A stretch of 64,000 bases of DNA from Lichtheimia corymbifera B2541. Its lineage: Eukaryota > Mucoromycota > Mucoromycetes > Mucorales > Lichtheimiaceae. Shown piece by piece: positions 25,432 to 52,125 of this stretch (positions are counted from its first letter, which is position 1; every line of letters begins with the position of its first letter). The notes beneath the pieces were generated by a model. That model was not told the DNA's origin, did not search any database, and was given only the letters and a program-made list of their open reading frames with translations. A program made the position numbers and the translations under genes. The DNA is taken from the NCBI GenBank assembly GCA_000697475.1, contig JNEU01000835.1, forward strand, positions 1-64,000, given 5' to 3'.

Positions 25432-26707
25432 TTACCCTTCAATGTCGGCGACAACCATTTCAGTAACAAGCTCATCAAAGCTGACCTTGCGCTTCCAGCC
25501 AAGCTTCTCGTTGGCCTTTGCGGGATCACCAAGCAAAAGTTCGACTTCGGCAGGACGGAAGTACTTTGGATCAATACGAACACGCACCTTTCCGGTTTCA
25601 GCATCCTTGCCAACTTCATTGACGCCTTCACCTTCCCACACAATCTTGCGGCCGGTGACAGCGAATGCCTTTTCGACAAAGCTGCGGACAGTGTAAGTTT
25701 CACCGGTGGCCAAAACGAAATCTTCGGGCTTGTCTTGTTGAAGCATGAGCCACATGCCTTCGACATAGTCACGAGCATGACCCCAATCACGCTTGGCGTC
25801 AATGTTACCAAGATACAAGCATTCTTGACGGCCCAAATGGATATCAGCAACAGCACGAGAGATCTTGCGTGTCACAAAGGTACGGCCACGGCGTGGGGAT
25901 TCGTGGTTGAAGAGAATACCATTGCAAGCATACATGTCATATGATTCACGGTAGTTGACGGTGATCCAGTAACCATACAACTTGGCGACACCATAGGGCG
26001 AACGAGGATAGAAGGGAGTGGTTTCCTTTTGTGGGGTTTCGACCACCTTACCATACAACTCGGAAGTGGAGGCTTGGTAGAAACGAACACGATCTTGCAA
26101 ACCACAAGTGCGGATAGCATCCAAAAGACGCAAAGTACCGAGGGCATCGACATCACCAGTGTATTCAGACATGTCAAAAGAGACCTTGACGTGGGATTGA
26201 GCAGCCAAGTTGTAGACTTCAGTGGGCTGGATCTGAGCAATAATGTGCACAAGACAAGTCGAATCGGTCAAATCACCATAGTGCAAAAAGAACTTGACGT
26301 CTATATCATATCACATAGATGATAAGTATCCAATATGACATCCCATATATATTTCTCCTGTACTTACTCTCATCATGACGGTCCTTGTAAATGTGTTCGA
26401 TACGACCGGTGTTGAATGAGGAGGATCGACGAATGATACCGTGTACCTCATAACCCTTCTTGAGCAAAAACTCGGTAAGATAAGAGCCGTCTTGACCAGT
26501 GACACCTATCAATGTTGCGTCAGAATCGCATCATCTAATCCCATGGTCGAGATGGGCTCATCTGGAGACGCAGATGACGAGCCAAACACGCGCGTGTGTG
26601 GCACGTGTCAACTTACCAGTGATAAGAGCAACCTTGCGGCTGCGATATTCTTCAACAGAGATGGTAGACTTGGCAATCTTGACGGGAGCAAAAACGGCTT
26701 CGGACAT
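25432..26707 (-). CDS. GMD: GDP-mannose 4,6-dehydratase
   Basis: Converts GDP-D-mannose to GDP-4-keto-6-deoxy-D-mannose, the committed step to GDP-L-fucose, in the cytosol. Three exons: 26707-26617, 26505-26368 and 26300-25432, summing to 1098 nt, or 365 residues, normal for the family. An extended SDR fold is evident. The dinucleotide-binding loop [10 protein letters not shown] is split by intron 1. [16 protein letters not shown], the catalytic region STSELYG and the YxxxK motif [12 protein letters not shown] follow, and NHESPRRG supplies substrate contacts. [14 protein letters not shown] is also diagnostic. The partner epimerase-reductase (GMER) is not in the window. L-fucose is a known cell-wall sugar of Mucorales, and the enzyme is rare in Dikarya. 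The leader (26720-26780) is GA-rich. Confidence 0.95.
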
Positions 26708-30545: not shown

Positions 30546-32351
30546 ATGACTATAACGCATCGGTCACGGCCCGTCAATGCCACTGTGACGAATACAACTG
30601 CAGAAGGATCGCAAATCGACGACAAGGAGCCACCCAAATACCATTGCGATGCGTGTAGCAACGATGTTACCAACACTGTACGAATCCGTTGTGCTGACGA
30701 CGATTGTCCTGATTTCGATCTGTGCGTGACATGTTTCAGTGGAGGTGCCGAGCCCATGAAGCACAAGACGTGGCATCGATATCGCATTGTCAAACCACAC
30801 ACGTTCCCCATTTTTACCGAGGATTGGGATGCTGATGAAGAGTTGCTCCTTATTGAAGCAGCACGCAAGTATGGTCTGGGCAACTGGCAAGCTATAGCCG
30901 ACTATGTGGGTACGAAGGATCGATCAGAATGCGAGCAACACTATCTTGATGTCTATGTATCAAGCCCTGACTGGCCGATGCCACGCATGGATGTCAAGTT
31001 TGATGAGCTTAGCGAGAGTGAATGTCGTGAACGAAAGCGTCATCGATTACAGCAATCACGTGGAATGCTTCCTCGCGCCAAAGCAGTAGTGGCCAATGCC
31101 AACAAACCAGTGACAAGTGGACCTGCATATCACGAGATCCAAGGCTACATGCCGCGTCGATTTGAGTTTGAGACCGAATATGAAAACGATGCTGAGCAAT
31201 ATGTCAAGGACATGGTGTTCAATGACGATGATACCCAAGAGGAAATTGATCTCAAACTGATGGTCCTGGATATTTACAACTCACGCCTGGATCGACGTGC
31301 AGAAAGGAAACGGCTTATTTTTGAACGTGGATGGCTCGATTTCAAAAAGATGCAGGCAGCTGAAAGAAGGAGGTCAAAAGAAGAACGAGAAGTCTACAAC
31401 CGGACACGCGTTTTTTGCCGTTTGCAGACAGCCTCTGATTATGAAATGTTGGTTCAAGGATTGGTACGGGAACAGCAATTACGGGACAGAATTTCTATTT
31501 TGCAAGAGTGGCGAAAGGCTGGTTTGACATCGCTACGACAAGGCGAACAATATGAAAAGGATAAGCAATCACGCCTTGCTCAACTCAAAACGCTTATTCA
31601 GCTGTCGAATGATCGTATGGGAGCTGCTGCTGTCACTCAACGCAACACATATCGTGCACAAATGGCAGCTCTTTCAGCAACACCCAGTGGTGCCAGCATT
31701 TTCAGAGATAGCGGACGATCAAGTACACCAACACAAAGCAATGGATCACATGTCAATGCATCTTCTTCAGCTACAGCAGCAGCAACAGCAACTTCAGCAG
31801 CCAACACAGCAGCAGCGGCAGGAGCACGACGACCAGCAAATCCTTTGGATATCAGTGAAGCGGATGGTGTGCATTTATTGACAGAAGAGGAACAAACATT
31901 GTGCTCAACCTTACGTATCCTTCCTCGACCTTATATGGTGATCAAAGACACGATTTTGAAAGAATACGCGCGCCAAGGATACTTGAAACGACGACAGGCT
32001 CGAGGTCTTATCAAGATTGATGTCAACAAGACAAGTCGCATTTACGATTTCTTTATTGAGAGTGGGTGGATCAAATCATTCAAAGGACCCTCGTCATCAA
32101 TACCAGCCACTACACAACCACAACCACAACCACCAACATCCCAATCAAATTTACACCAACAAAATCCATCGATATCATCACAACAACAACCACCAGCCAC
32201 TGTACCTGCATCATCCACATTGCCATCATCCACCACCACCACCACCACTACTACTACACCTGCAACTGTGCCTGAGGCACCTCCATCTACTACAGCAGCA
32301 CCACCACAACCACAACCATCAGCTGCAACACCTACACAAGCGTCTCCATAG
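30546..32351 (+). CDS. ADA2: Transcriptional adaptor Ada2, SAGA histone acetyltransferase module subunit
   Basis: Ada2 couples Gcn5 and Ada3 in the SAGA/ADA acetyltransferase complexes in the nucleus. It is a single uninterrupted 601-residue frame. Domains in order are a ZZ zinc finger at about residues 32-80 (HCDACSNDV...CPDFDLCVTCF, ending with an HxxxHxY-type part), and a SANT/Myb repeat at about 88-140 (WDADEELLLIEAARKYGLGNW). Next comes the Ada2 central helical region (YMPRRFEFETEYENDAE..KDMVF). A SWIRM domain at about 435-515 (LCSTLRILPRPYMVIKD..YLKRRQARGLIKIDVNKTSRIYDFF) closes the conserved part. An Ala/Ser-rich insert precedes SWIRM, and a ~85-residue Pro/Gln/Thr-rich tail follows it. 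It is longer than yeast Ada2 (434) because of these low-complexity parts. It is the only long gene here without introns. Confidence 0.96.
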   Translation: MTITHRSRPVNATVTNTTAEGSQIDDKEPPKYHCDACSNDVTNTVRIRCADDDCPDFDLCVTCFSGGAEPMKHKTWHRYRIVKPHTFPIFTEDWDADEELLLIEAARKYGLGNWQAIADYVGTKDRSECEQHYLDVYVSSPDWPMPRMDVKFDELSESECRERKRHRLQQSRGMLPRAKAVVANANKPVTSGPAYHEIQGYMPRRFEFETEYENDAEQYVKDMVFNDDDTQEEIDLKLMVLDIYNSRLDRRAERKRLIFERGWLDFKKMQAAERRRSKEEREVYNRTRVFCRLQTASDYEMLVQGLVREQQLRDRISILQEWRKAGLTSLRQGEQYEKDKQSRLAQLKTLIQLSNDRMGAAAVTQRNTYRAQMAALSATPSGASIFRDSGRSSTPTQSNGSHVNASSSATAAATATSAANTAAAAGARRPANPLDISEADGVHLLTEEEQTLCSTLRILPRPYMVIKDTILKEYARQGYLKRRQARGLIKIDVNKTSRIYDFFIESGWIKSFKGPSSSIPATTQPQPQPPTSQSNLHQQNPSISSQQQPPATVPASSTLPSSTTTTTTTTTPATVPEAPPSTTAAPPQPQPSAATPTQASP

Positions 32352-42346: not shown

Positions 42347-45300
42347 ATGAAACGGTCCTTTACAGACGACACCCGTGCCAACGACTGCAAAAAGCATTGC
42401 TCTCATTTGAACGAGAACGAATCCGACGTTCAATCCCTCCAACCACCAGACCAGCCATCGACCACCACCGATATCGACATGAGCACCTTCGTCTTGAACT
42501 ATGTGCGTGACATTGTGCGAGATCTCGATCAAGGACATCTTGACCATTGCCTCAGTAAACAGTTGGATCGAGACACTCTTGATAAACTACAGCCTGAGGA
42601 AGTAGAAGTTGCCACCACCTTAGACACTGCCCTGAAGAATATCGCACAAAAGCAACTTATGCTGGAAACCGACAATCTCAGATATCGGATCGCTATTCAG
42701 CAACAATATCAGCTGCTGACAGCAACTCAATGTGAATCATCAGAGGATCTTACAGCCAACAAAACGCCAACTGCACCAGCTGCAGCTACTACTATCATCC
42801 CACCATCAGCATCATCATTAGCATCATCATCAGCATCAGCGTCCAACAACGATCAAGAACATGATATAACAACAACAACTGAAATGCCACCACCGACTCC
42901 TACCACAACAACCTCGACTGAAACAAACACAAAGATTGAAAATCCCACCACCACCACTGAAACCATGGCAACACCTGAACATGGCATATCGACTATCCGT
43001 GATTCTTCCATGCTGGAAAAGATGCAACCTCATAATCGTAGCCCCATGCTTTCAATGCCTACCTCCTCGTCTACTGCTTCACCTACTGGTTACTTTGGTA
43101 AGTTTTGGGATGGGAAAGTCCTCACTACTCCCCTTGAATTTCTTTTCTTCATATGACTTGTTCTCATGATGATGTCTTTTACAAACACCTACTCCTCCCT
43201 TCCATTCTTGTATAGCTGTTTCTACCGCCACTACTACTTCTGGTACGCCTCCAATCGCCACAAATGCTGCTTCCATGGTTGCTGGTTCGATTACGCCATC
43301 ACCATCCATGACGCCACCTTTTGGTATCCCACCGAGTAGCAATGTATATCCTGTCTTTTTTGGCAACACAATGTCACCACCACTCATGTCTTTCCCTGCC
43401 GCTACTTCCAATACAAGTGCAGACAACATTGTATGTCCTGATTGTGTCGTCCAAGCTGTTAAAGTTGCATCCTCAGTCTTTGCTGGTCAACTCAATCATC
43501 GTATCACATGTAATCACGAGCGCTGCACATCCTCCTCCGGTCCTATACATTCATCTTCACCTATCAACATGCTCAAAAATGCCGTCAATAGCATGATCGA
43601 TCGCTTACAACATGTTGCTGACGAGGCCATGTACGTTGCTCATGAAACAGCTGTCAAAGGCAAACTCGGTGTACAAGCTCGATGCGATCGTGAAATGAAG
43701 GGCGTTTGGAGAGACTTTGTTCTGAACCTCAACAGCATGACTCGAAGCCACCTTGAACAAGTGCGTGACATTGCAGATGTATCAACAGCCATTGCACGTG
43801 GTGATTTGAGCAAAGCCATGACCGTTCCTGTGAAAGGTGAAACACTCTTGTTAAAAAACACATTCAACACCATGGGTAAATATTAATATTACTGGGAGCC
43901 TTATTTCGGTTTAGCTCATGTGACACCTAACATATATATGCTATACCATAGTCAATCAGCTCAATCTCTTTGCATCGGAAGTATCACGCGTAGCACACGA
44001 TGTCGGCACAGAAGGACGTCTTGGTGCACAAGCTAAAGTTGCTGGTGCTGATGGTATCTGGAAGGAACTCACCGATAATGTCAATACAATGGCTGCCAAC
44101 CTCACAAACCAAGTCCGTGATATCGCTCAAGTATCCAAATCAGTGGCGCGTGGCAACCTCACAAAAAAAGTGACCGTGGAAGTGAAGGGCGAAATGCTTG
44201 ACTTGAAAAACACAATCAATACTATGGTCGATCAGGTAATTATTTATTGCCAAGATATGGTTACTATAGCAACCACGTGCCGGTGCTAAATCTCTTTTAT
44301 GCAAACAGCTTTCTATTTTTGCAACCGAGGTTACGCGTGTGTCACTTGAAGTTGGCACTGAAGGCAAACTGGGCGGACAAGCGGTGGTCAAGGATGTTGC
44401 TGGCATATGGAAAGATCTCACTGATAACGTCAACATGATGTCCTTTAAGCTCACTGGACAAGTACGTGACATTGCGGCAGTCGCCAAAGCTGTAGCCAAG
44501 GGTGATTTGTCCAAAAAGGTGGTAGCGAATGCTCAAGGCGAGGTGCTCGAATTGAAAAACACCATGAACAAAATGGTAATGCTTATTAGATGTCTATGGA
44601 ATTTCATGTTGCTAATGATATATATATGCTAGGTGGATCAATTGACATTATTCTCAGCTGAAGTACGGCGTGTGTCATTGGAAGTGGGTGTCGAAGGCAA
44701 ACTTGGTGGACAAGCTGTGGTGAAGGATGTGGGCGGTGCATGGAAAGACCTTACCGACAATGTCAATACAATGGCAGCCAATTTGACAACCCAAGTACGA
44801 TCCATTGCCCAAGTGACAAAAGCCGTTGCCAAAGGTGATCTCAGCAAAAAGATCCATGTTGAAACACGAGGAGAAATTCTTGATTTGAAAAACACCGTCA
44901 ATGACATGGTGGATCAGCTACGAGTCTTTTCAACAGAAGTGACACGTGTTGCCAAAGAAGTTGGCACAGATGGCAAACTTGGTGGTCAAGCAGTAGTACC
45001 CAATGTTGGTGGCACGTGGAAGGATCTCACAGACAATGTCAACACCATGGCAGCTAATTTGACGACACAAGTGCGGTCCATAGCAAGAGTCACTAAGGCG
45101 GTTGCTAATGGTGATTTATCCCAAAAGGCCACTGTCAATGTTAGTGGGGAGATTTCTGATTTGAAGGATACGGTCAACAACATGGTGGATCAGCTACGCG
45201 TGTTTTCATTCGAGGTGACCAGAGTTTCACGTGAAGTTGGCACCGAAGGCAAGCTTGGAGGTGAAGCAGTCGTACCCAATGTCAGCGGCACTTGGAAAGA

Positions 45301-48300
45301 TCTTACCGATAATGTCAATACCATGGCAGCCAATCTGACTACGCAGGTGCGATCGATTGCTCAGGTCACCAAAGCCGTCGCCAAAGGTGATCTGAGCAAA
45401 AAGATTGAGGTGGAAACCCGTGGCGAAATATTGGACCTTAAAAACACGGTCAACAACATGGTGGATCAACTCACAGTATTTGCTGCCGAGGTCACACGTG
45501 TTGCAAAGGAAGTGGGTACCGAAGGCAAGCTGGGTGGTCAAGCTGTGGTGCCCAATGTTGATGGTACTTGGATGGATTTGACCGACAATGTGAATACCAT
45601 GGCTGCCAATCTGACGGCGCAAGTACGATCCATTGCCCAAGTGACTAAAGCTGTCGCTTTGGGAGATTTGTCAAAGAAGATCGAGGTTGAAAGCGGTGGT
45701 GAAATTCGAGAGCTCAAGGATATCGTCAACAACATGGTGGATCAATTACGTATCTTTGCATCTGAAGTCACTCGTGTATCCAAAGAAGTCGGCACTGAAG
45801 GCAAACTGGGAGGTCAAGCTGTGGTACGCGGTGTAGCTGGCACTTGGTGGGAGCTTACCAACAACGTGAATATCATGGCGGCCAACCTTACAAGCCAAGT
45901 GAGATCCATCGCGGAGGTGACGAAAGCTGTTGCATTGGGAGACTTGTCTAAGAAAATTGAAGTTGAAAGTGGTGGTGAAATCTTGGAGCTCAAAGATATT
46001 GTCAATGGCATGGTGGATCAATTACGTATATTTGCTTCCGAAGTGACCCGTGTATCCAAGGAAGTTGGCACTGAAGGCAAATTAGGAGGCCAGGCTGTTG
46101 TCAAAGGTGTTGCTGGCACGTGGTATGAGCTCACCAACAATGTCAACATCATGGCAGCCAACCTTACGAACCAAGTGAGATCCATTGCTGAAGTAACCAA
46201 GGCTGTTGCATTGGGAGACTTGTCTAAGAAGATTGAAGTTGAAAGTGGCGGCGAGATTCTCGAGCTCAAAAACATCGTCAATAACATGGTGGATCAACTA
46301 CGTATCTTCGCATCTGAAGTCACTCGTGTATCCAAAGAAGTCGGCACTGAAGGCAAACTGGGAGGCCAGGCTGTCGTCAAAGGTGTAGCTGGTACTTGGT
46401 GGGAGCTTACCAACAATGTCAATATCATGGCTGCCAACCTTACAAGTCAAGTGAGATCCATTGCTGAAGTAACCAAGGCTGTTGCATTGGGAGACTTATC
46501 CAAAAAGATCGAAGTTGAAAGTGGTGGCGAGATCTTGGAGCTCAAGAACATTGTCAATGACATGGTGGATCAACTGCGTATCTTTGCATCGGAAGTAACT
46601 CGTGTATCCAAGGAAGTGGGAACCGAAGGCAAACTGGGAGGTCAAGCTGTAGTACGCGGTGTGGCTGGTACATGGCAGGAACTCACTAGCAATGTCAATA
46701 TCATGGCAGCAAATCTCACCAATCAAGTACGCTCTATTGCTGAGGTGACCAAAGCTGTTGCTCTTGGTGATTTGTCAAAGAAGATCGAGGTGGAAAGTGG
46801 GGGTGAAATCCGAGAGCTCAAGGATATTGTCAACAACATGGTGGATCAATTACGTATCTTTGCATCTGAAGTCACCCGTGTATCCAAGGAAGTCGGTACT
46901 GAAGGCAAATTGGGTGGCCAGGCGGTCGTCAAAGGTGTGGCTGGTACCTGGTGGGAACTCACGAATAATGTCAACATCATGGCAGCCAACCTTACAAGCC
47001 AAGTGAGATCTATTGCTGAAGTTACCAAAGCTGTCGCCTTGGGTGATTTATCCAAAAAGATTGAAGTTGAGAGCGGTGGTGAAATTCTTGAGCTTAAGGA
47101 TATTGTCAATGGCATGGTGGATCAGCTACGTATCTTTGCATCTGAAGTCACTCGTGTATCCAAGGAAGTCGGCACTGAAGGCAAATTGGGTGGCCAAGCT
47201 GTTGTGAAAGGAGTTGCTGGTACCTGGTGGGAGCTCACGAATAATGTCAATATCATGGCAGCCAACCTTACCAATCAAGTACGATCCATTGCCGAAGTTA
47301 CAAAAGCTGTTGCTTTGGGAGATTTGTCAAAGAAGATCGAGGTTGAAAGTGGTGGCGAGATCTTAGAACTCAAGAATATTGTGAATGACATGGTGGATCA
47401 ATTGCGTATCTTTGCATCTGAAGTGACACGTGTATCCAAAGAAGTCGGCACCGAAGGAAAGCTTGGCGGACAGGCTATTGTACGAGGTGTGGCGGGCACA
47501 TGGAAGGATTTGACAGACAATGTGAATACCATGGCAGCCAATTTGACGGCTCAAGTACGATCCATTGCCCAGGTGACTAAAGCAGTTGCCCTTGGTGATT
47601 TATCAAAGAAGATCGAGGTTGAAAGTGGCGGTGAAATTCTTGAGCTCAAAGATATCGTCAATAACATGGTGGATCAGCTACGTATATTTGCATCTGAAGT
47701 CACACGTGTGTCGAAAGAAGTTGGCACTGAGGGCAAATTGGGTGGCCAAGCTGTCGTCAAAGGAGTCGCTGGCACCTGGTGGGAGCTTACCAACAATGTC
47801 AATATCATGGCAGCCAACCTGACAAACCAAGTACGATCCATTGCCGAAGTTACAAAAGCCGTTGCTTTGGGAGATTTGTCAAAGAAGATCGAGGTTGAAA
47901 GCGGTGGTGAAATTCGAGAGCTCAAGGATATTGTCAACAACATGGTGGATCAATTGCGTATCTTTGCGTCTGAAGTCACTCGTGTATCCAAGGAAGTCGG
48001 CACTGAAGGCAAACTGGGAGGTCAAGCCGTGGTGCGTGGTGTAGCTGGCACTTGGTGGGAGCTTACCAACAACGTGAATATCATGGCGGCCAACCTTACA
48101 AATCAAGTGCGATCCATTGCTGAAGTAACCAAGGCTGTTGCATTGGGAGACTTATCCAAGAAGATTGAAGTTGAAAGTGGTGGTGAAATACTTGAGCTCA
48201 AGAACATTGTCAACAACATGGTGGATCAGTTACGAGTGTTTGCATCCGAGGTGACACGTGTATCCAAAGAAGTCGGCACAGAAGGAAAACTAGGTGGACA

Positions 48301-51144
48301 AGCTATTGTACAAGGTGTTGCCGGTACATGGAAGGATTTGACAGACAATGTGAATACCATGGCAGCCAATTTGACGGCTCAAGTACGATCCATTGCTCAA
48401 GTGACTAAAGCTGTTGCTCTTGGTGACCTATCCAAAAAGATTGAAGTTGAAAGTGGTGGTGAAATCCTTGAACTCAAGAATACGGTCAATGACATGGTGG
48501 ATCAATTGCGAGTATTTTCTACCGAAGTGACACGCGTGGCACGTGAAGTCGGCACCGAAGGCAAATTAGGTGGCCAAGCTCATGTTCAAGGTGTAGCTGG
48601 CACATGGAAAGACTTGACGGATAATGTCAACATGATGGCAGGCAATCTCACAACACAAGTACGATCCATTGCTACTGTCACCACTGCAGTCGCCAAAGGT
48701 GATCTTTCGAGAAAGATTGTTGTTGAAGTACAAGGTGAAATCTTGCAGCTCAAGTAAGTTACCCTTTATGCTTAGTGATCGATCCTTTTATTAAATATTA
48801 CTACTTTAGGAACACGGTGAATTCCATGGTGGATCAACTACGTGTGTTTGCTGCTGAAGTAACACGTGTGGCACGAGAAGTTGGCACAGAGGGTAAACTT
48901 GGTGGTCAAGCTACGATAATGGGCGTGGATGGCACCTGGAAAGATCTTACCGACAACGTCAACCTAATGGCAAGCAACCTAACGGACCAGCTACGATCTA
49001 TCGCAGCAGTATGTAAAGCAGTGGCTCAGGGTGATCTATCCAAAAAGATTGAAGTTGAAGTACATGGCGAGATTGCTGAGCTCAAGGATACCATCAACAC
49101 CATGGTTGATCAGCTCAATTCATTCGCTTTCGAGGTTACACGTGTTGCTCGTGAAGTTGGTACCGAAGGCAATCTTGGCGTGGAAGCACGCGTCAAAGGT
49201 GTGGGCGGTGTATGGCTTGAAATCACCAGCAATGTCAACACCATGGCATCGAATCTTACAACACAAGTGCGTGCGTTTGCTCAAATTTCCGCTGCTGCTG
49301 CTGAGAATGACTTTTCTCGCTTGATCACTGTTGAGGCACAAGGCGAGATGGATGCTCTCAAGACCAAGATCAATCAAATGGTTAGCTCTTTACGTGATGC
49401 CATGCAAAAGCATCGTCAAGCAAAGGAGACAGCTGAAATGGCAAATCGATCCAAGAGCGAGTTCTTAGCAAATATGAGTCATGAAATCAGAACACCCATG
49501 AATGGTATCATTGGAATGACAGCCTTGACATTGGAGACTGAGCTTAACAGACAACAACGGGAAAATCTCATGATTGTATCAAGTTTGGCCAATACCCTGT
49601 TGACTATCATCGATGATATTTTGGATATTTCAAAGATCGAAGCTGGACGTATGACCATGGAGACGATTCCCTTTTCAATGCGTTCATCAGTATTCAGCGT
49701 GCTCAAAACATTGGCTGTCAAGGCGAATCAGAAAAAACTTGATTTGATATACAACGTCGATAAGGGTATCCCTGATCATCTTATTGGTGATCCACTACGT
49801 CTGAGACAAGTCATCACCAACCTTATTGGCAATGCCGTCAAGTTTACAAACCAAGGCGAAGTGGCATTGGAAGCGCGTGTCATTGATATGCAAAACAACT
49901 TTGCTACATTACAATTTTGTATCGCTGATACCGGTATTGGCATCCATTCTGACAAGCTGCAGATCATCTTTGATACATTTTGCCAGGCTGATGGAAGCAC
50001 AACGTAAGTACTGATATAGGAAAGGTATCATATGCGATGCTTATCATCATATACTGTAGGCGTGAATATGGTGGTACTGGTCTTGGATTATCTATTTGCA
50101 AGCACCTTGTTGAATTGATGGGTGGTCAAGTCTGGGTGGAATCCAACTATGGCCGTGGTTCTCAGTTTTACTTTACCATGAAGCTGCAACTACATTATGT
50201 GGAAGAAAAGGACGTTATGGATAAGATGGTGCGATTCCGTGGACGACGTATTCTATTTGTCGACAGCCTACAAGATTCAAGTGGATTGGTGAGCAAGATG
50301 GAGAAGCTTGGATTGGAGGTTTACCGTGTTTGTGATGTGGTCGAAGCAACCGAATTGGCCAACAAGTACTCAGCCAGAGCCAAACACACGCCCTACTTTG
50401 ATACCGTGGTTATCGACAAGATGGTTCAAGCAGGCAAAATACGAGATATCATGCCGTTACGTTACACTCCATTGGTGATTGTTTCACCCGAAGCCCATAT
50501 GCTCAACATGAAACTCTGCATCGATTTGGGTATCACGGGATACATTAACTCGCCTCAGACACTTGCGGAATTGATGGAGGTGTTATTGCCAGCATTGGAA
50601 AGTCACGTTGCGTTGCCAAGCGACTCATCAAAGACAGTGCCGCTTCGAATTCTGCTTGCGGAAGACAACATGGTGAATCAAAAGCTTGCTCTTCGGATTC
50701 TACAAAAATTTGGACACAATGTTACCACGGTCAGCAATGGCAAATTTGCGGTGGAAAAGTTCCAAAACGAGCCATTTGACATGGTTCTGATGGACGTGCA
50801 GATGCCAGTGATGGGAGGCTTTGAAGCTACACAAAGGATTCGACAATTGGAAAAAGAGTCAGGTACCGATTCTCATATTCCAATTATCGCGTTGACGGCC
50901 CATGCTATGATTGGTGACCGAGAAAAGTGTTTGGCGTCAGGGATGGTAAGTTATTGGATACTATTTTTACAATCGTGCATATGGATCGACTCATGCAAAC
51001 ATCATCTTGCAGGATGAATATGTTACAAAGCCCCTGCGTCTACCAGAGTTGATTGCTGCAATCAAGAAATTCGCTCCCCAATCTGCTCATGTTCCCTTGG
51101 ATCAGCCTTCATCTTCCAGCAGCAAGAGCAGTTATCATCGCTAA
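42347..51144 (+). CDS. NIK1: Giant group III (Nik1-type) hybrid histidine kinase with ~20 HAMP-repeat units
   Basis: Cytosolic osmosensor-type hybrid kinase, which in other fungi acts upstream of the Ypd1-Ssk1/HOG pathway and is the target of fludioxonil-type fungicides. Eight exons: 42347-43097, 43216-43875, 43952-44235, 44309-44575, 44633-48753, 48810-50003, 50060-50945 and 51013-51144. They sum to 8295 nt, or 2764 residues; yeast-type Nik1 proteins are ~1100-1300. Order of parts: a disordered N-terminus with a CPDC/CNHERC cysteine motif (Cys324, 327, 349, 354); about twenty 92-residue HAMP-type units (~367-2214); HisKA with His2252 in [12 protein letters not shown]; an HATPase with N-box (NLIGNAVKF), G1 (DTGIGI) and G2 (GGTGLGLS); a degenerate receiver-like segment; and a C-terminal receiver with AEDN and phospho-acceptor Asp2671 ([11 protein letters not shown]) plus TKPLR lysine. 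All catalytic residues are present. There are no membrane segments. Confidence 0.95.
43568..49390 (+). repeat. Tandem array of about 20 HAMP-type coding units (276 nt each)
   Basis: Units are recognised by the recurring NxMVDQL heptad followed by [20 protein letters not shown], a GTWxELT linker, NVNxMAANLTxQVRSIA and KGDLSKK. The heptads fall near 43590, 43950, 44226 and 44633, then every 276 nt from about 44907 to 48495, then near 48825 and 49100; a final NQMVSSL closes the array near 49370. In Nik1-type kinases each such unit carries a HAMP domain plus a HAMP-like linker and forms a helical signalling rod. The first three and last three units are the most divergent. Introns interrupt only the outer units. 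Confidence 0.93.
45735..48495 (+). repeat. Homogenised core of the HAMP array, ten nearly identical units
   Basis: Ten consecutive 276-bp units differ at only a few amino-acid positions (K/R before GVAGTW, W/Y/Q/K after TW, D/N in ELKD/ELKN, NN/ND/NG before MVDQL). Some distant units match better than neighbours. The block around 45661 is almost identical to that at 47869, exactly 2208 bp (8 x 276) away. This indicates block duplication or gene conversion rather than simple one-unit expansion. Confidence 0.85.
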
Positions 51145-52044
51145 TACCACAACCACTACTACTACGCCTTCCTGTTCCTCTTCTCATTCCATGGTCCGGA
51201 TACCAGCCAATGAGTCATGTGACACGTTTCTTGTATACCTTTCGCATTATTGTCTCTTTTTTCCTTCTTTTCCTGCCATCTACACTTTGTAAAGCTATAT
51301 CTATTTATCAACGCCCCCTAGGTGTATGGTGATGGGGTTCTTGTTGAAACAGAATGTGATATGCAGGGTGCCGGTATAGGGTGGATTATGTGCACGATGG
51401 TCAAGATTGTGAGAAAGTTATCAGGATGCATACGCAGATGACCTATGAGTAGCAAATTAGCGCTTTGTTTGTGTTGTGGGTGTTGTTTGCGCAGCAGCAG
51501 CTAGCATATGCAAGTTGTATGAGAGATGGTCAGTGCGTCCTATCATGTTGCTGATATTGCGAGTAATTACTAACGGGCCTGATGATGTGTGAATGATGGA
51601 ATTGGGGGGAGAGTGCTTGTATTCTTCTTGGCATCATACACTCTATGCTAGGGTGCTGTGCCACAGTGGCTATATCATCTAGTATTCTTGATTCAAGATT
51701 CACAATGATAGGAATTAAGATGGGATCAAATGCGAATGCTTTCGGCGATCCTTAGGTTGCATCAAGCACGTTGTGTATTTTTGGAAAGCTGGTGTCACAA
51801 ATGCTGCAGTAGCGCCAAAAAAAAGTTTCGGTTTGCATTCCGTCGGTTGGTACGCCAAACAAGGAAACAGCCTTTTGTACTCGTTTTGCAGGTATGTATA
51901 TATTGAAATAAAGCAATTGCCAATTGAACGATATTAGTAAAGAGTCATGCAATTGCACGAGGTCATGATATGTGTGCATAAATGTATGGAGTTAATGTTA
52001 TCATCATAATAAAGATTTGATGGTTGACCGAAGTCGGGCATGTG

Positions 52045-52125
52045 AAAGGTGTTTTGGTAAACCGGCCAAGTGGAAGGTGTTTTGGTAAACCGGCCAAATG
52101 GAAGGTGTTTAGGTAAACTGGCTTT
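52045..52125. repeat. 28-bp tandem repeat, three copies
   Basis: The unit begins aaggtgttttggtaaac and contains a cggccaa core, starting near 52046, 52074 and 52102. The third copy has a few substitutions (tttagg, aactggc). It is non-coding. Confidence 0.85.

Follow-up and report, generated by a model that had tools for sequence, protein, structure and literature searches.

The gene at positions 42347-51144 of the window (the whole 64,000-nt stretch of contig JNEU01000835.1 of Lichtheimia corymbifera B2541 that was analysed) probably encodes a hybrid histidine kinase of group III (Nik1 type), whose HAMP units would make up a long relay rod in which specialised ends enclose a spacer-like middle. 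The gene model, based on splice consensus and an open frame with exon borders predicted from DNA alone, comprises eight exons (42347-43097, 43216-43875, 43952-44235, 44309-44575, 44633-48753, 48810-50003, 50060-50945 and 51013-51144) and seven introns of 56-118 nt, all of them GT-AG (7/7). Joined, the exons give 8,295 nt and 2,764 amino acids with a single, terminal stop, in agreement with the open 2764-residue protein proposed in an earlier note on this DNA. The features of the gene are:

42347-51144, plus strand: whole gene in eight exons, coding for a predicted 2,764-aa hybrid histidine kinase of group III type (GT-AG introns, single open frame)
42347-43592, plus strand: N-terminal region ahead of the array, residues 1-376, containing intron 43098-43215 (gene model, unit HMM, Pfam)
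43593-45733, plus strand: units 1-7, which form the N-terminal array end and show positional identity, three introns inside (cross-species unit matching)
45734-48493, plus strand: units 8-17, homogenised middle block (cross-species and within-protein unit matching)
48494-49377, plus strand: units 18-20, C-terminal end of the array with positional identity, intron 48754-48809 inside (cross-species unit matching, gene model)
49450-49647, plus strand: HisKA, with a ten-residue phospho-acceptor motif at residue 2251 (PF00512, E=1.9e-19)
49786-50189, plus strand: HATPase_c, divided by intron 50004-50059 (PF02518 in both exons)
50649-51144, plus strand: receiver with LLAEDN, LMDVQMP and TKPL, extending into the last exon (PF00072, E=1.4e-22 for the exon 7 part)

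The domain content is that of a group III kinase: HAMP-bearing repeats of about 92 residues, arranged in tandem in the N-terminal part (unit HMM, PF00672), HisKA with its phospho-acceptor histidine and H-box (PF00512 and the ten-residue motif), and HATPase_c (PF02518) with a C-terminal receiver carrying D, D and K (PF00072; LLAEDN, LMDVQMP and TKPL at residues 2624, 2669 and 2726). The HisKA, HATPase and receiver motifs previously read as intact are therefore borne out by Pfam and by motif position. Five to six units, a usual but non-defining trait of the group, are replaced here by 20. The highest hydropathy window of the protein, located in HisKA, reaches 1.65, marginally above the usual cut-off of 1.6 for a membrane segment, and the kinase is probably soluble. 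No Pfam family was found in exon 1 at E 0.1, and a protein search with exon 1 as sole query returned unnamed fragments as matches. Elsewhere in the window lie an ADA2-like transcriptional adaptor in one open frame (30546-32351; ZZ, Myb, TADA2A-like and SWIRM domains), a GDP-mannose 4,6-dehydratase-like ORF on the minus strand (25432-26286; PF16363, E=8.1e-136) and, downstream of the kinase gene, a tandem repeat of 28 nt in 3.1 copies (52035-52122).

A unit HMM, trained on 19 of the kinase's own 20 units, delimits 20 contiguous 92-residue units at residues 377-2217, with a constant spacing of 92 residues from unit 2 onward, and Tandem Repeats Finder reports a period of 276 with 14.2 copies at 44753-48673 (score 3424). 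The recurrence of about twenty such units, noticed earlier from the letters, is thus confirmed; the NxMVDQL heptad said to accompany them does recur with the 92-residue period, but MVDQL in its exact form occurs 18 times, and the boundary motif, taken with three variants, is spaced by 92 residues and once by 93. Pfam detects one HAMP per unit over the cut-off, and the PF00672 scan proposed earlier gives 19 six-frame matches inside the gene, the one unit left without a match being that whose HAMP is divided by intron 48754-48809. In CaNik1p the 92-residue unit is a pair of HAMPs, with nine HAMPs in five repeats (PMC3848655, partial text), and 20 units would on this basis correspond to about 40 HAMP modules; "twenty HAMP-type units", as first worded, would then hold for the units and understate the modules. 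Each unit of the present kinase may hold such a pair, the HAMP that Pfam detects being HAMP A: besides the CaNik1p precedent and homology to PDB entry 9trk, helices suggestive of the second, divergent HAMP (HAMP B) are seen in an AlphaFold model of three units whose confidence is low (mean pLDDT 42, pTM 0.35; alignment made of 12 stretches of the window). The unit does have a solved relative, since chain 9trk_A, in which part of a histidine kinase is joined to Gcn4p, matches about three units with E=1e-81; 9trj is another. The literature search turned up no paper that mentions 9trk.

Cross-species matching separates the ends of the array from its middle. Compared with the relatives from Dichotomocladium, Zychaea and Circinella, units 1-6 find their best match in the same-numbered unit, as do units 18-20 in all three (3/3), while unit 7 has a same-number match in Dichotomocladium, a tie in Zychaea and a best match to unit 9 in Circinella. 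In contrast, the nearest unit to each of units 8-17 lies within the same protein in 25/30 comparisons, with a unique same-number match in 2/30; in the three relatives, middle units behave likewise (nearest within their own protein in 24/30). Among 47 proteins of clean spacing, unique same-number matches are found for unit 1 in 35/47, unit 2 in 35/47, unit 3 in 40/47 and unit 4 in 32/47, and window unit 20 is the match of the last unit in 47/47; conservation of position is poorer for units 5, 6 and 7 and for the third-last unit (21, 27, 25 and 21 of 47). Middle units match by number in 8/498 cases, a figure lowered by unscored ties between near-identical units and by the shifted index of arrays of other length, which exaggerates the difference from the ends in this set. 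These comparisons indicate that the ends of the array keep positional identity and that units 8-17 are homogenised within species.

With respect to the five to six units of characterised Dikarya kinases (PMC3848655 and PMC3418262, partial texts; the range first given was five to seven), the kinase does have several times the usual number, as the earlier note had claimed, but the array is less of an oddity than it then appeared, counts of about 20 being common in the Mucoromycota proteins listed and 32 being reached in Coemansia, with three more long arrays in the same genome. Among the matches listed, none of the 93 tabulated proteins from named fungi falls below 10 units, and 55 reach at least 20 (55/103 when ten more named Rhizopus proteins with 11-16 units are included), short arrays being under-represented because the protein searches admitted about 755-2,404 or 1,520-4,837 residues and the best 120 each. 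Unit spacing is odd in 31/93, and 43 of the 62 with clean spacing have at least 20 units, again among the matches listed; in 8/93 the protein begins partway through the first unit. Tabulated counts run from 10 to over 30, the Coemansia entries having 32 with clean spacing, and two Kickxellomycotina arrays above 32 being irregularly spaced. The longest arrays among those tabulated are in Kickxellomycotina proteins P0141, P0150, P0154 and P0158, of about 4,300-4,800 residues and at least 32 units. The 118 other proteins longer than 1,900 residues, which are bacterial or unnamed apart from some of the ten extra Rhizopus rows, have 12, 14 or 15 units in 105 cases among the matches listed, and bacterial long-array hybrid kinases (rows among P0017-P0131) cluster at these same counts; in five bacterial proteins compared, units are up to 82% identical to window units. 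Judged by sequence, the kinase belongs to the longer representatives of a known family whose early-diverging fungal members commonly carry long arrays. Among the titles and opening lines of abstracts searched, none dealt with the length of the array in Mucoromycota, and a published survey may exist.

Five HAMP-array kinases are present in the genome, namely the window gene (20 units) and paralogues C340 (20), C199 (18), C390 (14) and C152 (about 10), together with 22 HisKA matches, of which 20 are above cut-off, and two HPt matches. The C152 row has a branch of 6.05, probably because its exons were joined crudely, and does not figure in the second tree. In C199 (L011, 5580-6131), two adjoining 276-nt HAMP units, units 13 and 14, differ by one base in 276 nt, and each has unit 13 of L. 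ornata as its match. As L. ornata has one unit there, this looks like either a very recent single-unit duplication or an assembly duplication.

That the 20-unit array itself is an assembly artefact, the true number being five to seven, is very improbable, although repeats are a known assembly hazard and the 432 contigs suggest a draft genome. Units 8-17 share 76-90% of their DNA and 86-99% of their protein sequence, and the middle units differ at a median proportion of 0.63 of synonymous sites (lowest 0.34), with a median dN of 0.033 against a dS of 1.38 (dN/dS about 0.02). They are old copies under strong purifying selection, and with a median dS of about 1.4 among them the array is therefore no recent or assembly duplication; the latter was rejected as its origin, synonymous divergence being too high. 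Moreover, the paralogues in the same genome carry unit sets of their own, the count of 20 recurs in other genera, and ORFs on ena/jgi-source contigs have 22, 16, 15 and 14 units with a spacing of exactly 92, the first unit being cut in those with 22 and 16. A different question is how the number of units changes. The earlier note saw array length as a fast-changing dial, in which unequal crossing-over would shift unit number between strains and tune the osmotic or fungicide response, a reading that is now mostly contradicted and that we consider distinctly unlikely, since unit counts follow phylogeny. In the tree of 51 clean rows (34/85 rows dropped for odd spacing or incompleteness; median count 21, range 12-30), the counts of tree neighbours differ by 2.18 on average, against 4.16 when shuffled, a value reached in 0/2000 shuffles; without seven near-identical rows the figures are 2.68 and 4.33, again with 0/2000. 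The tree was drawn from its midpoint, three bacterial rows meant as outgroup and 12 fungal rows being left out because they failed the motif filter. The count of orthologs once suggested as a check thus shows long arrays to be common among the proteins listed and their length to vary by clade, with 20 units each in the Dichotomocladium, Zychaea and Circinella relatives. What does stand is slow change in repeat number, to which point the C199 unit gain and the clade in which the window gene falls, a supported group of eight rows with counts of 20, 20, 20, 20, 18, 14, 13 and 12 and inner forks partly unresolved; its non-20 members are Dichotomocladium_b (18, odd gaps), C390 from the same genome (14), the L. 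hyalospora protein (13, odd gap) and that of FSU:9682 (12). A dial would also be favoured by Rhizopus entries that share identical kinase cores but have 13 and 10, or 22 and 19, units, as it would by the expansion or contraction of poly-HAMP in the myxobacterial MXAN_6735/LILAB_12790 pair (PMC4603909, partial text). However, out-of-register gaps, suggestive of false introns, occur in 31/93 tabulated proteins; they affect three of the four Rhizopus entries just named, as well as the clade members with 18 and 13 units.

A candidate for a difference between strains is P0170, a protein of L. corymbifera JMRC:FSU:9682 annotated as a gaf sensor hybrid histidine kinase, whose kinase core is scored as 100% identical over 558 columns and which differs from the window protein by one substitution and two gaps, one of exactly eight units in register and one of 23 residues in unit 20. 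When the protein entry was set against the window DNA, 256 break offsets reproduced the eight-unit loss, two of them with GT-AG ends, and the gap in unit 20 corresponds to a 69-nt stretch with possible GT-AG ends, which makes false introns plausible; deletion, assembly collapse and a false annotated intron would all fit the shortfall. More generally, in-register GT-AG pairs are present in 159/171 unit pairs (coding sequence of units 2-20; window 43952-49377), so that gene predictors could skip whole units silently, and public fungal annotations may undercount units. A neutral ratchet, by which array length would drift without functional effect beyond a minimum of a few units, is possible, if less than probable. 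It is consistent with the function of characterised relatives on five to six units (PMC3848655 and PMC3418262, partial texts), with the spread of tabulated counts and with a middle block that is homogenised and appears devoid of positional identity; against it stand the strong purifying selection over the middle units, the constant 92-residue spacing of the array from unit 2 and the phylogenetic distribution of counts, although slow drift would also yield phylogenetic signal. Conversely, the recurrence of 20 units in four genera could reflect selection for length, the array acting as a molecular ruler that sets its ends a fixed distance apart while conversion, or duplication and loss, homogenises the middle units, a reading that appears rather unlikely. 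The longer rod might also tune the threshold or add ligand sites, as the earlier note proposed. With about 40 HAMPs of roughly 2.5 nm each, a length that follows from helix geometry, the rod would measure an estimated 100 nm.

The favoured reading, a Nik1-type relay rod with specialised ends, draws on the control of kinase state by HAMP arrays upstream of Hog1 in group III kinases (PMC3848655, PMC5159414 and PMC3418262, partial texts) and on CaNik1p, of the same domain order, in which deletion of all HAMPs activates Hog1 in yeast (PMC3848655, partial text). As a class, group III kinases act upstream of HOG and are required for fludioxonil to work; in this respect the genome shows the two HPt matches noted above. 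By analogy with these kinases, we infer a dimeric rod, the direction of signalling, coupling to the HOG pathway and distinct roles for ends and middle. The array of 20 presumed HAMP pairs would form an uninterrupted sensory half, a dimeric rod of four helices, and keep the kinase in one of its output states; stress, whether osmotic or chemical, would alter the packing of successive HAMPs, and this change, on reaching HisKA, would shift the flow of phosphate that passes by way of HPt and response regulators towards a MAP kinase of Hog1 type. Units 1-7 may serve as a specialised input or regulatory end, units 18-20 as the coupling end adjoining the kinase, and units 8-17 as interchangeable spacer. 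Duplication of a whole 92-residue pair would keep both the alternation of HAMP A and B and the helix phase, and length could therefore change without inverting the output.

Fungal group III kinases (Nik1/Os-1, CaNik1p, DhNik1p, Bos1 and TcsC) resemble the present kinase in tandem 92-residue units (putative HAMP pairs here), HisKA, HATPase_c and receiver, and differ in having, where characterised, five to six units instead of 20 (PMC3848655 and PMC3418262, partial texts), TcsC having six according to the title of a paper cited in PMC11253588 (partial text). Kinases with long arrays that public databases list for Mucorales, Mortierellomycotina and Kickxellomycotina, such as P0144 of Dichotomocladium, P0147 of Zychaea and P0150 of Coemansia, belong to the same gene family, with unit counts varying by clade; P0144 and P0147 have 20 units and align with the kinase over its full length at 84-85% identity. 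No functional description of them was found in the literature searched, as far as its partial texts go. Bacterial poly-HAMP hybrid kinases share the same unit in extended arrays, those listed having mostly 12-15 units and many of them, unlike the kinase here, carrying PF13185 or PF01590, which we take to be GAF domains. They include the myxobacterial AskA, AskB and Amb07 of an ambruticin-sensing complex, with a poly-HAMP region longer than in NIK1 (PMC7643160, partial text). A further likeness is the poly-HAMP of Pseudomonas aeruginosa Aer2 (3LNR; 3VOL), with concatenated HAMPs in alternating conformers (PMC3570549, partial text), although the solved part holds three HAMPs and Aer2 has a chemoreceptor output, unlike the kinase here.

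If the ruler reading were true, a signalling domain would hold input and kinase ends a fixed distance apart. For the question of how far and with what fidelity a signal travels through concatenated HAMPs, early-diverging fungi provide a natural length series, from 10 to over 30 units and with several arrays per genome; because this series comes with conserved ends and a uniform middle, the dependence of signalling on length would be directly testable in yeast.
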